From assembly GCF_015482585.1 (NCBI RefSeq), contig NZ_CP049742.1, forward strand, positions 516,501 through 580,500: DNA of 64,000 bases, in the 5' to 3' direction. This stretch comes from Mangrovibacillus cuniculi (GTDB taxonomy: Bacteria > Bacillota > Bacilli > Bacillales > R1DC41). Every line of letters starts with the position of its first letter. Positions within the stretch are counted from its first letter, which is position 1. Shown one piece after another: positions 839-35,273 of this stretch. The notes under the pieces are model-generated. The model searched no databases, was not told where the DNA came from, and saw nothing but the letters and a program-made list of their open reading frames with translations. The position numbers and the translations under genes were made by a program.

Positions 839-1396
839 TTATTTTTCTATTTCTTTTAACACCATAGCTGGATTCCCACCAACAACGGTATAACTTGGAA
901 CATCCTTTGTGACAACAGCACCAGAGGCAATTACTGCTCCATCACCAATCGTTACGCCTGGATTGATAATTGCTCCGCCACCAATCCACACATCTTTTCC
1001 AATTGTTACAGGCTTTCCAAACTCTTTACCCGATTTTCTTTCAATTGCATCAAGTGGATGAGTTGCAGTATAAATATGTACACCAGGAGCAAGCATACAG
1101 TTATCCCCAATTTTAATTGGGCACACGTCTAGCATGATACAGTCAAAATTGGCAAAGAAATGATCCCCAACATGAATGTTGTACCCGTAATCACAGCGGA
1201 AAGTAGGCTCTATGAAAGCTCCTTTTCCTGTAGACCCAAACAACTCTTTTATCACTTCCATGCGTTCTTTTGCTTGAACTACACCCATGGCATTAAAGCG
1301 TTCCGTTAGTTGTCGTGCACGAATTCGGCCATCCAGTAATTCCTTATCTTGTGGATCATACATCTCTCCACGGATCATCTTCTCTTTTTCGGTCAT
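839..1396 (-). CDS. maa: sugar O-acetyltransferase (maltose acetyltransferase family)
   Basis: A 185-residue acetyl-CoA-dependent transferase that acetylates the 6-hydroxyl of sugars such as maltose or glucose. The N-terminal region ([20 protein letters not shown]) is the Maa/NodL-type N-terminal domain. It is followed by a left-handed beta-helix of hexapeptide repeats (residues about 75-180). The catalytic histidine of the family corresponds to the H in YTATHPLD, and the C-terminal [22 protein letters not shown] and VVGGNPA motifs are characteristic. Length matches the family. The ATG at 1396 has an AAGGAT ribosome site upstream. It stands alone between a terminator and a minus-strand membrane-protein pair, so it is probably monocistronic. 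Confidence 0.9.
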
Positions 1397-1455
1397 CGTT
1401 CTTCTATCCTTTCCTACTAAAAAGCTTCAATACCCACTGGCATTGAAGCTAAGCA

Positions 1456-14262: not shown

Positions 14263-14552
14263 TGGCTAACTCATTAGTTTCGGTACAAATTATTCCCAAA
14301 ACACCTAATGGAAAGGACGTTATTCCATTTGTGGATGAAGCAATAACACTGATTCATGAATCTGGTTTACCATATCAAGTGAATCCTTTAGATACAACCA
14401 TAGAAGGGGAAATGACAGAGGTATTATCACTTGTGGAAAGAATGAATGAAAAAATGGTAGAGCTAGGCTGTCATAATGTCATTACACAAATGAAAATACT
14501 GTATCAACCTACTGGCATAACCCTATCCACGTTAACGGAGAAGTACCGTTAA
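14262..14552 (+). CDS. thiamine-binding domain protein (MTH1187/YkoF-like)
   Basis: A 96-residue cytoplasmic protein of the small ferredoxin-like thiamine-binding family (PF01910). It begins SLVSVQIIPKTPNGKDVIPFVDEAI. The family has been implicated in binding thiamine or HMP. Its ATG overlaps the last base of thiY's stop codon, and its stop codon overlaps the thiX start, so translation is tightly coupled. Its position between binding protein and permease suggests an intracellular sensor or ligand acceptor for the transporter, which is inference. Confidence 0.85.
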   Translation: MANSLVSVQIIPKTPNGKDVIPFVDEAITLIHESGLPYQVNPLDTTIEGEMTEVLSLVERMNEKMVELGCHNVITQMKILYQPTGITLSTLTEKYR

Positions 14553-31351: not shown

Positions 31352-32092
31352 ATGCTTAACATTAATAAATTAGAGAAACGATTTGATGATATAGAAGTGT
31401 TAAAAGGTTTAGACCTTGTGGTTAAAGAAGGAGATGTAACAGTTCTTATTGGACCGTCTGGTTCCGGAAAGACTACATTTTTACGTTGTATTAATGCGTT
31501 GGAGGAGCCTAATGCTGGAACAGTTGAAATAGATTCCTTAGAGGTTAATTACAATCGTTCGTATAAGCAATCGGATGTACGATTACTTCGCCAAAAGACG
31601 GGCATGGTTTTCCAAACGTATAATCTGTTCCCACATAAAACGGCTCTTCAAAACGTAATGGAGGGACCAGTTCAGGTTCAAAAAAGAAATAAAGCGGAAG
31701 TGGAGAGAGAAGCAAAGAGTTTATTAGAAAAAGTAGGTCTTGGAGATAAGCTAGATGCTTATCCATTCCAGCTTTCTGGTGGTCAACAGCAACGTGTAGG
31801 AATTGCACGAGCATTAGCGATGAAGCCTAAACTAATGCTTTTTGATGAACCGACTTCCGCTTTAGATCCAGAGTTAGTTGGGGAAGTGTTAAAAGTGATG
31901 AAAGACTTAGCTAACGAAGGTATGACTATGGTTGTAGTCACTCACGAAATGAGATTCGCAAAGGAAGTTGCGAATACCGTAGTATTTATGGATGGAGGCC
32001 ATATTGTTGAGCAAGGGCCACCGGAGCAAATTTTTGAAATGCCAAGAGAAGAAAGAACGAGAAGATTCTTACAATTAATATCACATTCATGA
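31352..32092 (+). CDS. tcyC: amino acid (probably cystine) ABC transporter ATP-binding protein
   Basis: A 246-residue ABC ATPase with Walker [11 protein letters not shown]-loop [11 protein letters not shown], signature LSGGQQQR, Walker [15 protein letters not shown] and H-loop [10 protein letters not shown], the polar amino acid type. A GTG at 31343 is in frame, but the ATG at 31352 lies 8 nt after AGGAGG and is chosen. It completes the three-gene importer. Confidence 0.88.
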
Positions 32093-32122
32093 ACTATCAC
32101 CTTTATAGGTGGTAGTTTTTTT
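32093..32122 (+). terminator. terminator of the cystine transporter operon
   Basis: Ten-base-pair stem ACTATCACCT with AGGTGGTAGT, loop TTAT, then TTTTTTT. Confidence 0.92.
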
Positions 32123-32154
32123 GATTTGAAGATGCTTAAACTCGTCTGGGTGGA

Positions 32155-32698
32155 CTGAATTGGCCGCTAGGAGAGAATAAGAGGTGTTTAAACTCATGAA
32201 GGAGAAGAAAAATTGCCGCTAGGAGAGAATAAGAGGCGTTTAAACTCATGAAGGAGAAGAAAAATTGCTGCTAGGAGAGAATAAGAGGCGTTTAAACTCA
32301 TCAAGGAGAAGAAAAATTGCTGCTAGGAGAGAATAAGAGGCGTTTAAACTCATGAAGGAGAAGAAAAATTGCTGCTAGGAGAGAATAAGAGGCGTTTAAC
32401 TCATGAAGGAGAAGAAAAATTGCTGCTAGGAGAGAATAAGAGGCGTTTAACTCATGAAGGAGAAGAAAAATTGCTGCTAGGAGAGAATAAGAAGCGTTTA
32501 AACTCATGAAGGAGAAGAGGAATTGTCGCTAGGAGAGAATAAGAGGCGTTTAAACTCATGAAGGAGAAAAAAAATTGCCGCTAGGAGAGAATAAGAGGCG
32601 TTTAAACTCATGAAGGAGAAAAGAAATTGTCGCTAGGAGAGAATAAGACGCGTTTAAACTTATGAAGGAGAAGAGGAATTGCCGCTAGGAGAGAATAA
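32155..32698. repeat. tandem array of about 11 units of 52 bp
   Basis: The motif CTAGGAGAGAATAAG recurs at 32167, 32219, 32271, 32323, 32375, 32426, 32477, 32529, 32581, 32633 and 32685. Eight steps are 52 bp and two are 51 bp; the two 51-bp steps lack one A in TTTAAAC. Each unit carries GCGTTTAAACTCATGAAGGAG. The array fills the gap between a plus-strand terminator and the minus-strand SASP terminator. A repetitive 68-residue frame on the minus strand exists only because three consecutive units keep reading phase. Confidence 0.92.
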
Positions 32699-32708
32699 AA
32701 TAGATAAA

Positions 32709-32730
32709 CCCCTAGGTCGAAACCTAGGGG
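32709..32730 (-). terminator. terminator of the SASP gene
   Basis: Nine-base-pair stem CCCCTAGGT/ACCTAGGGG with a 4-nt loop; on the minus strand it is followed by TTTATCTATTTT. Confidence 0.8.
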
Positions 32731-32743
32731 AATAGCCATACTA

Positions 32744-32956
32744 TTAGTATTGAGATTTACCGCCAAGTTGTTGTTCAGCCATTTGAACTAAACGCTTAGT
32801 GATTTCTCCACCTACTGAACCGTTAGCACGAGCTGTTGTATCTGGTCCAAGGTTTACTCCGAATTCGTTAGCGATTTCGTACTTCATTTGATCGATAGCT
32901 TGTTGTGCGCCAGGAGCTACTAAATCATTAGAGCTGTTACGTGTTTGGTTTGTCAT
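32744..32956 (-). CDS. alpha/beta-type small acid-soluble spore protein
   Basis: A 70-residue DNA-binding protein that saturates spore DNA and protects it from UV and chemicals. [30 protein letters not shown] and the C-terminal [18 protein letters not shown] are signature segments; the germination protease site lies in KYEIANEF. The ATG is preceded by TAAGGAGATG. A textbook sigma-G promoter is upstream, and the mRNA leader contains a tRNA-like cloverleaf. It is monocistronic. Confidence 0.96.
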
Positions 32957-32986
32957 GTTGATTCATCTCCTTAAGATCATGTAGTG

Positions 32987-33055
32987 TGGTTGGGCCAGTA
33001 GGGTTTGCACCTACAAGTCAACGTCTTTGACTACTACCTAGTGTAGCTTGGCCCA
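32987..33055 (-). ncRNA. tRNA-like cloverleaf with encoded ACCA end, in the SASP leader
   Basis: On the minus strand, from 33055 down: acceptor TGGGCCA, AG, D-type stem CTAC with a 5-nt loop and GTAG, T, anticodon-type stem AGTCA, 7-nt loop AAGACGT, TGACT, one base, T-type stem GTAGG, 7-nt loop TGCAAAC, CCTAC, acceptor TGGCCCA (32997-32991), then A and CCA (32990-32987). All 21 stem pairs are Watson-Crick. It is not a normal tRNA: U8, U33 and the D-loop GG are missing, and the D-loop and variable region are too short. The loop would present GAC. A pseudo-tRNA or tRNA mimic is the simplest reading. It lies between the sigma-G start and the SASP ribosome site. Confidence 0.65.
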
Positions 33056-33089
33056 GTAAAAGTTGATTGCTTGTTGCTGTTTGTACTCT

Positions 33090-33118
33090 TAGTATGGTTT
33101 GCTTTTGAACTCTTATAC
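33090..33118 (-). promoter_or_regulatory. sigma-G promoter of the SASP gene
   Basis: On the minus strand GTATA (33118-33114), 17 bp, CATACTA (33096-33090), matching the sigma-G consensus in both elements. Start of transcription is expected near 33083, giving a leader of about 125 nt. Confidence 0.85.
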
Positions 33119-33226
33119 TGTTACTTTTTGGAAATATTTTTTATTTTCATAAGAATCGTCCGTTACATAAATTATGATTTACCGTAAACGCTAATCTTAT
33201 ACAAAAAGGTTAGAGGAGTAGATGAA

Positions 33227-33442
33227 ATGATCTGTCATGTATGTAATGGGTTTAATCAAATTGATTTCTTTTGCGAAGAATGTGGAGGAAAGATGAATGA
33301 TATGGGGAAGCGAATGGATTATGAAGATAAGTATAGTGCGTATTTAACGGATTTATATGAGGATAACGTTTTAGAGTGTGAACATCTGTTGGTGTGTACA
33401 TCTTGTTTTAGAGATCGTGTAGTAGGGATTAGAGTGGAATAG
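33227..33442 (+). CDS. small protein with three Cys pairs (zinc-ribbon-like)
   Basis: A 71-residue hypothetical protein. CHVC (residues 3-6), CEEC (16-19) and CTSC (58-61, preceded by a CEHLLV segment) suggest zinc binding. The middle is acidic. The ATG at 33227 follows AGAGGAGTAGATGAA. It diverges from the SASP gene. A hairpin (GCCGCATCAT/ATGATGCGGC, 33454-33483) without a T run follows. No function can be assigned. Confidence 0.7.
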   Translation: MICHVCNGFNQIDFFCEECGGKMNDMGKRMDYEDKYSAYLTDLYEDNVLECEHLLVCTSCFRDRVVGIRVE

Positions 33443-33453
33443 AATAGAATAAA

Positions 33454-33568
33454 GCCGCATCATCGATAGAAGAATGATGCGGCTAAACGCGCGCCTTCCG
33501 CCTTTGTTACGTGAACAGTAACAACTCAGTGTTGACGACGTGATGTCGTCCGTTCTTAACTGAGTATC
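33454..33568 (+). repeat. structured element copy B with flanking repeat module
   Basis: Hairpin 1 GTTAC (33506-33510), loop GTGAACA, GTAAC (33518-33522). Outer stem ACTCAG (33524-33529) with CTGAGT (33560-33565). Hairpin 2 GACGAC (33534-33539), loop GTGAT, GTCGTC (33545-33550). Relative to copy A both outer and inner stems changed in a compensatory way. CTAAACGCGCGCCTT at 33483-33497 is the reverse complement of 60780-60794 next to copy D. Confidence 0.8.
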
Positions 33569-33575
33569 CTTAGTC

Positions 33576-35273
33576 TTACTCCACCTTAAACCTCTTCACA
33601 ACCTCCTGCAAAGATTGCGCCAATTCCTTTAGCTGGTGGTTTTGCTTTTTTAAGGTTTGTACTGTATGGTTTTGCGTTTGGGAAGAAGCCGAAATTTCAT
33701 CCATTGTCGCTACACGCTCTTCTGATATTGCTGCAATTTCATGTAATGCATTAACGGAGTCTTTTGATACCTTGCTCATGTCCTCCATGTTTTTCACAAT
33801 GTCTTCTACTTTCTTTGTTAAAGCTTCTACGGAATTATAGATATTTGTAAAAAGTTCTCCACTTGTTTGGACCATGTATACGCCTTTTTCAATATCATCA
33901 TTCACTTCTTTATTGGAATGGTGCATTAATGTCGTTTGGTTTGTAATTTCGTTGAGTGCATCATTTATAGTTCTTACATTATTCTCCGTTAGACCAGCTA
34001 ACTTCTGCACTTCTTGCGCAACGATTGAGAATCCTTTACCTGCATCGCCAGCACGAGCTGCTTCAATTGCTGCATTTAGCGCCAATAAGTTTGTTTGATC
34101 GGCAACATCTTTGATTAGACGAGTATATTGATGCACTTGATCCATTTTTTCCCCTAAAATAGTTAATCGTTTCTGACTTTCGTTTCCGCTTTTCTGGATT
34201 TTGCTCATTTGTTGTGTAATAGAAAGGATTTGCTCTGTACCGGCCTTTGCAACATTTCCAGTTTCTTTAGCAAATTCGTCAATCGCTTTCGTTCTATTAT
34301 TTACAGAATCAATCTTTTTTGCCATCAAAGTAGTACCTTCAGAGACATCATTAATGTGTAAAGCCTGAACTTCACTTGCTTTCGCTTCTTCTCCAGTGCC
34401 AACAGCAATTAAGGAAGATGCCTCTGATAATTCATCAAAGGAGCTAACCAAAATATTACTGTTTTCGTCTATTTGTTTCGAATTGAAGATAACGTTTTGA
34501 ATAATTCTCACTAAATTCTTTCGCATTTCTTCAAAATTGCTAGCTAAAATACCTATTTCATCTTTTCGCTTAATGGAGATATTTTCCGTTAAATCACCAT
34601 TACTAATTTTAGTCATCGATTGAAGAAGCAACTTGATTGGCTTCGTCAAATGTCGTCCCAAGATAAAAGCAATAATCGAGATTAAGATAATGGAAAGTAT
34701 GAAGAATACAGCCTGGAAAACCTGGATATTTCTTTGTAAATCTTCTATAAATTGTGTGCTCATATCAATTCCAATAATGGCATCCGCATCGGTAAGAGGA
34801 ATAAAGTAAGACTTGTGACTTCCCCATTCATCTACATAAATATCTGTTGTAACTGGAACCTTTTCATTAAATGCTTTACTTTGGTCTTCCGTTAGAGGAT
34901 ATTCCACCATAAGATCTGGGCTTCCATTTAAAGCCACGATATAATCCTTACCATCCTGCTTACTTAACACATACACATACTCTATTTTATCTTTCCCTTC
35001 CATAAACGTGTTCAAAAAGGAGACGACAGAAGAATTCTCGAAATCGCCTTCGAGTAATTGATTAATTTCTTCTTGATCGATTGTGTCAGCGAGAGCTTGT
35101 CCTTGAATCTGCAGAATCTCCTCAAATTGAGGAAGAACATGCTCCGTAATAATGTATTCCTTAATAGACCAAACATAAGCAAAAGTAATGACACTAATAA
35201 CGACAAAAGGAAGTAGGAAACCAATAAATAATTGTGCTCGAAGTGATTTTTTAGGATGTAATAAGTTTTTCAA
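33576..35273 (-). CDS. methyl-accepting chemotaxis protein
   Basis: A 565-residue chemoreceptor. Membrane helix 1 is at about residues 13-35, then an extracytoplasmic sensor of about 150 residues, helix 2 near 185-208, a HAMP domain ([23 protein letters not shown]) and the signalling hairpin with [33 protein letters not shown]. It signals to CheA/CheW. Start is TTG at 35273, behind AAAGGAGATGTTACT. It begins 13 bp after the ATP-grasp gene, so the two are probably co-transcribed. The ligand is unknown. Confidence 0.93.

Follow-up and report, generated by a model that had tools for sequence, protein, structure and literature searches.

What a tRNA-like cloverleaf might be doing in the leader of a spore-protein gene is the question raised by one locus of Mangrovibacillus cuniculi. 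In the 64,000-nucleotide stretch of its genome analysed here (the window), the minus strand carries a 70-aa alpha/beta-type SASP gene (32744-32956; PF00269, E 7e-23), preceded on the same strand by the Shine-Dalgarno sequence AAGGAG (32967-32972). Further upstream, a sigma-G/F-type promoter (33090-33118, minus strand) can be read from the sequence, with GTATA at 33118-33114 and CATACTA at 33096-33090 separated by 17 nt. The transcription start estimated from the -10 box leaves an A/C-rich 5' leader at 33056-33083 (minus strand). Between this leader and the ribosome site lies a 69-nt element (32987-33055, minus strand), recognized by its fold, by a strict descriptor and by a covariance model, which forms a cloverleaf and ends in an encoded ACCA. 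An earlier note on this DNA had placed such a cloverleaf between a sigma-G-like promoter and the SASP Shine-Dalgarno sequence, and both signals were found where it had put them.

The acceptor stem of the element is formed by TGGGCCA (33049-33055), whose U1, G2 and G3 are shared with tRNA-Gln, and TGGCCCA (32991-32997), both on the minus strand like all other parts. Enclosed by these are a D-type arm GCTAC-ACTAG-GTAGT (33033-33047), with AG in the loop where a tRNA has GG, an anticodon-type arm AGTCAA-AGACG-TTGACT (33016-33032), the loop of which is not kept across the family described below, a variable region of one base, and a T arm GTAGG-TGCAAAC-CCTAC (32998-33014) in which position 55 is G. 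The encoded ACCA (32987-32990) corresponds to RCCA in the family consensus. The cloverleaf is the minimum-free-energy fold (-26.3 kcal/mol, z -2.74; one of 200 shuffles was as good), in which the D stem has 5 bp, the anticodon stem 6 bp and the anticodon loop 5 nt. Both strands were also scanned with a strict descriptor demanding Watson-Crick-only stems of 7 bp (acceptor), 4 bp (D), 5 bp (anticodon) and 5 bp (T), 7-nt anticodon and T loops, and NCCA. Its sole match in the 64-kb window is 32987-33055 on the minus strand, which bears out the stems and loops claimed in the earlier note. The note was equally correct that A-CCA is encoded, that the T loop TGCAAAC is one base away from TTCRANY, and that U8, U33 and the D-loop GG are absent. 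Neither 20 Markov windows nor the 489 kb of 80 SASP loci (the best 80 of 553) contained a match to the strict descriptor; with G-U pairs allowed and CCA not required, 0.1 matches per Markov window were found. The covariance model R3 scores the element at 54.1 bits (E 6e-11); the rows of R3 exclude the window, yet they were aligned using the model R2, whose rows had included it. A second R3 match in the window lies at 14455-14524 (minus strand), with 15.7 bits.

The element is not peculiar to this genome. The window SASP protein was searched against public genome records, and the 80 best of 553 loci were taken. When the leaders were read, the same design was found before the start codon in 21 of these 80 best-ranked loci: UGGG..., small arms, CTGG-TGCAA-NN-CCAG, ...CCCA, ACCA, a short A-rich linker, GGAG and the start. 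Rossellomorea, Metabacillus, Domibacillus, Cytobacillus, Neobacillus, Peribacillus and several Bacillus records are among the 21. With the acceptor and T arm fixed, four arms form in 20 of the 21 leaders, L095 having one hairpin in place of two; these relatives escape the strict descriptor because their lower arms differ. The earlier note had named loss of the fold in close relatives as the result that would speak against its reading, and the comparison of related SASP leaders found the fold conserved. The element is absent from 59 of the 80 loci (best 80 of 553), same-genome paralogs included, and SASP messages can therefore do without it. Pairs of paralogs from one assembly, one member of which lacks the element, are L037 beside L042, L030/L053, L048/L104 and L051/L093; similarly, the two other SASP genes examined in the window's genome are without it.

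A covariance model built from ten elements (R1) recovered 20 of the 21 leaders, namely nine training rows, ten held-out leaders at E<0.01 (one of which, L062, is identical to a training row) and L087 at E 0.57-0.98, and it missed L095. Away from a SASP leader, R1 gave a 44-nt match of 26.9 bits in L098 (2628-2671, minus strand). The order-wide R1 search covered 397 genomes, and every genome's best listed match of at least 38.6 bits was examined. Of these 119 matches, 30 came with the search output itself, and the loci of the others were fetched in two rounds, 80 first and nine last. A SASP gene lies directly downstream in 117 of them (30 + 78 + 9), the window's own included, and the other two (L201 and L214) are tRNAs according to ARAGORN. 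The match in L214 (151-223, plus strand) is called tRNA-Leu(cag), although by eye it has no long variable arm and resembles tRNA-Gln in its acceptor, D and T arms; it is perhaps another pseudo-tRNA. Four further SASP leaders with the element, scoring below 38.6 bits, were found by other routes (L230, L231, L237 and L238). The element is present in at least 121 of the 397 genomes of the order and in 21 of 47 family labels by our own count. Some R1 match at E<=1e-3 occurs in 340 of the 397 genomes; many of these matches score about 37 bits and span 75 nt, which would be expected of tRNA-Gln.

A broader covariance model (R2) was searched against 398 genomes of the class, and its matches of at least 48 bits were confined to the window's order. 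Outside the order, R2 gave thirteen matches of about 45 bits, and the four that were fetched (L233-L236) are tRNA-Gln(ttg) according to ARAGORN; spread of the element beyond the order was rejected on these grounds. Plasmids and phages, each searched with one element, gave no match. A single ortholog group carrying the element was also considered and rejected, since the element label is clustered on a tree of 160 SASP proteins (29 changes compared with 47 in shuffles) but does not form one clade. At least five label changes are forced by well supported branches of this tree, which has 68 columns and an unsettled bootstrap. The leaders of alpha/beta-type SASP genes contain a conserved RNA family, and the window element is a member of it.

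The structure of this element is under selection. Removal of the two tRNAs (L201 and L214) and of the window (L121) left 129 elements, and removal of 12 duplicates left 117 distinct ones; the nine loci fetched last are outside this count, and at least six elements (L041, L054, L093, L154, L160 and L169) were read one base out of register, which lowers the counts slightly. The alignment guided by R2 comprises 79 distinct rows, the window not among them; pairing holds in 93.4% of its cells, as against 20-45% when the partners are slid. Both sides have changed at 16 of 20 pairs and all four helices covary in these 79 rows. The alignment was fitted to the structure and, therefore, the ungapped acceptor and T columns were checked separately; the top eight APC-corrected covariation scores there are all true pairs (about 24 effective sequences). 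The acceptor is paired at 7/7 positions in 95 of the 117 elements and the T stem at 5/5 in 108 (G-U counted), and in whole-leader ensembles the acceptor and T arm both have a mean probability above 0.5 in 81 of 107. Both lower arms reach 4 bp in 54/117 elements, compared with 5.6% of shuffled interiors. These lower arms differ in length and loop across the family, of which the 7-nt anticodon loop is not a feature. The element of L192, with a long insertion within its anticodon-type arm, is 111 nt long.

What stands directly before the ribosome site of these SASP genes is a conserved RNA like tRNA-Gln, consisting of a top half (7-bp acceptor, 5-bp T stem, T loop and RCCA) and two short lower arms. 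Among the 117 distinct elements, the T loop has T54 in 117, G55 in 105, U55 in 12, C56 in 113, R57 in 116 and A58 in 115, and the 3' end has R73 in 112, C74 in 111, C75 in 111 and A76 in 112, the discriminator being A73 in 85 and G73 in 27. The acceptor pairs U1-A72, G2-C71 and G3-C70 are kept in 109, 113 and 113 of the 117, respectively. Changes on both sides were seen in 4, 0 and 2 sequences at pairs 1-3 and in 8, 10, 17 and 6 at pairs 4-7 (79 rows). Position 8 is T in 11/117 elements. By eye, CCA is absent in five of the 117 (L070, L087, L124, L187 and L205), and the acceptor of L095 is divergent (GGACTAT/ATAGTCC). In L070, L124, L237 and L238, AAA stands where CCA is otherwise encoded.

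In real tRNAs, G18 contacts U55 and G19 contacts C56. The D loop of the 105 G55 members has AG in 93, GG in 7 and another combination in 3, two members being stemless, while that of the 12 U55 members has GG in 8 and neither in 4. The association of G55 with AG gave a Fisher P of 1.5e-5 in a first version of the count, which ignores relatedness. This count used a 3-bp D stem and thus puts the window in the GG class, though its 5-bp stem leaves ACTAG. Finding AG with G55 and GG with U55 is as expected if the elbow contact were kept in rewritten form, and A18-G55 plus G19-C56, judged from the sequences, looks like such a rewritten contact. In 111/117 elements, the acceptor and T arms are nearest to tRNA-Gln(ttg), with a mean identity of 75% (next tRNA, 58%), when ranked among 23 tRNA sequences that are a part of the tRNAs of the window's genome. 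The pairs U1-A72, G2-C71 and G3-C70 of the tRNA-Gln acceptor are present; its G73 is not the family rule.

Just before the acceptor, C occurs at -3 in 92/117 elements and a purine at -2 in 112/117; the tRNA flanks of the window's genome have C-3 in 2/35 and a purine at -2 in 21/35. A general RNase P leader signature was considered for C-3 and rejected, as only those 2 of 35 same-genome tRNA flanks have it. In the four bases after the CCA, no conserved 3' signal other than A/T-richness was found. Ten leaders (L143, L159, L167, L172, L173, L175, L176, L193, L205 and L209), all of family label f47 in our own mapping, are tandem, with a second tRNA-like body after the first; by eye, CCA is absent from the second body, position 55 is U and a GG lies close to the D loop. 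L087 is also tandem, its second body likewise with U55 and without CCA by eye, and its first body seems by eye to have a hairpin inserted in the T stem.

The position of the element with respect to transcription and translation signals is similar across the family. The motif CATA[ACT][TC]A occurs within 110 nt upstream in 85 of the 117 distinct elements, compared with 16.6 in shuffles. The earlier note's idea of a SASP leader that contains a tRNA mimic and is transcribed from a forespore-type promoter is supported. The rule used for the ribosome site left 10/117 leaders without one, so that the Shine-Dalgarno and promoter work has n=107; in these 107 of the 117 leaders, where the site was read, the distance from element to start codon is 24-38 nt. 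That the element simply occludes the ribosome site is unsupported, as the mean pairing of the Shine-Dalgarno sequence with the element is 0.04 (107 leaders). Nor is the Shine-Dalgarno sequence freely accessible: the median predicted probability that it is unpaired is 0.39, most of its pairing being with the 5' leader, at 0.29, and with the linker, at 0.22. Likewise unsupported as a family feature is an anti-Shine-Dalgarno sequence located in the 5' leader and removed with it by RNase P. Pairing of the Shine-Dalgarno sequence with this leader averaged 0.205 in the real leaders, compared with 0.188 after shuffling (Wilcoxon P 0.72, n=107), and it exceeded 0.5 in 17 real leaders vs 5 shuffled means. 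In the window, a five-codon ORF (ATG ATC TTA AGG AGA TGA; 32963-32980, minus strand) overlaps the SASP Shine-Dalgarno sequence.

The SASP-leader element is not a functional tRNA, nor is it a decayed one. In the window ARAGORN gives no tRNA, and it makes no tRNA call on the elements of 21 relatives, 10 further members and 11 more. Rfam gave no RF00005 match at E<=10 in window 32000-34000 and no family match at gathering thresholds in 14 relatives; its T-box model has no match in the window region or in the 14 relatives. Under permissive thresholds, L207 alone among 20 further members reaches the RF00005 cut-off (29.1 bits vs 29). The best Rfam match on the element is to the opposite strand (32989-33055, plus), where the Plastid-ycf2 5'UTR RNA scores 19.9 bits (cut-off 65.7). 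The same model matches L189 at 23.5 bits; our guess is that this plastid RNA is perhaps tRNA-like as well. Among the features of a functional tRNA, the window element has the 7-bp acceptor, the 5-bp T stem with 7-nt loop and the CCA, and lacks U8, U33, G18G19, U55 and a variable region of at least 4 bases. No conserved anticodon was found in the family.

Several known RNAs share some of these features. The tRNA-Gln(UUG) of the same genome is like the element in its acceptor UGGG...CCCA, U1-A72, T-stem pattern and CCA, and its GCCAAG-type D arm is found in many members. The element, however, lies ahead of an mRNA, conserves neither an anticodon nor a 7-nt anticodon loop, mostly has G55 instead of U55 and AG instead of GG and, in the window, has a one-base variable region. 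The Escherichia coli thrS operator, which mimics a tRNA from within the leader of a synthetase mRNA, is likewise a tRNA-like structure in a bacterial 5' leader. It is described as mimicking the anticodon arm, without an acceptor arm (PMC9976931), whereas the element keeps the acceptor/T half and not the anticodon, and its gene encodes a spore DNA-binding protein rather than a synthetase. Similarly, tmRNA and viral 3' tRNA-like structures, which are described as RNase P substrates, share the tRNA top half and CCA; the fold of the element, in contrast, is 5' on the mRNA and its CCA is internal and not chargeable while attached. Another Bacilli pseudo-tRNA, tRNAOther of Bacillus cereus, has been proposed to be the tRNA-like part of a larger regulatory RNA. 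It differs in lying beside a genomic island and in its Trp anticodon and Fur sites, and the words spore, sporulation and SASP do not occur in the main text of the paper describing it. T-boxes are also leader RNAs tied to tRNA biology, but they bind a tRNA, whereas the element is itself a tRNA-like body. By the features tested, the element is a member of none of the thrS operator, tmRNA, viral tRNA-like end and tRNAOther classes. The earlier note mentioned pseudo-tRNAs reported in Bacillus but none in a SASP leader, and none of this kind was found in the open full-text literature, outside which most subscription papers fall, so that an older description is possible. It is a real RNA element and seems to be undescribed.

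Parts of the tRNA maturation literature suggest how such an element could act. RNase P is described as binding the stack of T stem-loop and acceptor together with the elbow, and CCA as an antideterminant for RNase Z (PMC4919913). Cleavage of an unusual RNase P substrate is reported to depend on a 3' RCCA (PMC12710915), and RNase P is reported to process other RNAs as well, including tRNA-like structures and some mRNAs (PMC11143913). The reading tentatively preferred here, with a confidence somewhat short of even, is that the element acts in cis via the tRNA machinery, RNase P trimming the mRNA at the fold and leaving a tRNA-capped SASP message. The element would present itself to this machinery as a substrate: RNase P would recognize the 12-bp acceptor/T stack, the elbow and the RCCA and cleave immediately 5' of U1, so that the short A/C-rich leader would be lost from the mRNA, while the encoded CCA would hold RNase Z off the 3' side. 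The SASP message would then start with a folded, recessed tRNA-like cap. Such a cap might conceivably resist a 5' exonuclease or pyrophosphohydrolase, which could make the mRNA of one SASP paralog long-lived in the forespore.

The 12-bp acceptor/T stack, the T loop and the 3' RCCA of an RNase P substrate are all present, and RNase P trimming is favoured because the features kept are those that RNase P reads, whereas the lower half varies. The encoded CCA argues against cutting by RNase Z. A SASP gene downstream in 117/119 matches, with the other two being tRNAs, and covariation in four helices count for a cis element. Several observations count against RNase P trimming, however. CCA is missing in 5/117 elements, in L238 and in the second copies of the tandem leaders. 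U1-A72, G2-C71 and G3-C70 are kept, though an RNase P that measures shape would need none of them. C-3 and the purine at -2 are kept beside the supposed cut, and C-3 is not a feature of same-genome tRNA flanks. In addition, 59 of the 80 SASP loci (best 80 of 553) are without the element, and the acceptor and T arm are formed in 81/107 leaders, not in all. A wider proposal, that many spore-forming Bacillales have tRNA-capped mRNAs in which a captured and rewritten tRNA-Gln in the leader is 5'-matured by RNase P, shielded from RNase Z by its internal CCA, sets message lifetime through its body and is maybe read by glutamine-tRNA enzymes, is possible but doubtful.

The main rival to RNase P trimming is mimicry of glutamine tRNA, in which a handler of tRNA-Gln (a non-discriminating GluRS, GatCAB, or a complex of these) would bind the leader and tie the synthesis of Gln/Asn-rich SASPs to glutamine charging. 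The top half is nearest to tRNA-Gln(ttg) in 111/117 elements (23 tRNAs compared), and the window SASP has 8 Q and 6 N among its 70 residues. Pairs 1-3 change less than pairs 4-7; U1-A72, G2-C71 and G3-C70 are described as bacterial Gln identity pairs in the acceptor, and amidotransferases as relying on U1-A72 (PMC9976931). However, the family has not kept an anticodon, the principal element for GluRS; position 73, the discriminator, has A in 85/117 and G in only 27/117, divergent acceptors such as that of L095 occur, and the 3' end is not chargeable while the mRNA is attached. The likeness may also be ancestry alone, and on balance such mimicry seems unlikely. The encoded RCCA and tRNA-like shape would also suit a small RNA excised by cuts on both sides, which would accumulate in tRNA-like form specifically in the forespore and act in trans. 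This is improbable: apart from the two tRNAs, none of the 119 matches lies away from a SASP gene, RNase Z is reported to be blocked by CCA, and the four bases past the CCA have no conserved 3' signal other than A/T-richness.

An operator bound by a forespore or SASP protein, which would adjust translation or stability without tRNA enzymes (e.g. in SASP feedback), would fit the fixed place of the element 24-38 nt ahead of the start codon (107/117 leaders) and the conservation of C-3 and R-2 outside the tRNA-like body. It leaves the RCCA and the tRNA-Gln likeness unexplained, however, and the Shine-Dalgarno sequence scarcely pairs with the fold (mean 0.04), nor does it pair with the 5' leader above shuffles (P 0.72); there is little likelihood of this explanation either. 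Decay of a tRNA, which the earlier note had listed as an option, or a functionless chance fold would be in line with the tRNA-Gln likeness of an element that is unrecognized as a real tRNA. Against this stand the compensation seen in every arm among 79 distinct sequences, the constant gene linkage and the E of 6e-11 for the window element. The conserved fold gives no support to decay, and the covariation refutes both forms of the explanation, whose probability is close to nil.

A tRNA-like element kept across many lineages before one kind of gene is a natural experiment in the reuse of tRNA outside translation, in which the anticodon has been dropped and the elbow contact apparently rewritten. 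It offers a concrete entry to post-transcriptional control in the forespore and a clean evolutionary test of which tRNA features RNase P, RNase Z and the tRNA-Gln enzymes depend on. If tRNA-capped mRNAs exist, they would have a type of 5' end not found for cellular genes in the open literature.

Two further features of the neighbourhood were noted in the window. A unit of about 52 bp is present in head-to-tail copies (about 32032-32802) downstream of the SASP gene, and these repeats sit between that gene and an amino-acid ABC transporter operon. Further, the Bacillaceae-1 RNA model (RF01690) matches 33506-33575 (minus strand) at 32.8 bits, just below its cut-off of 35, directly after a chemotaxis receptor gene. 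By eye, a stretch resembling this match adjoins the SASP paralog in locus L010 (about 1365-1436, plus strand).
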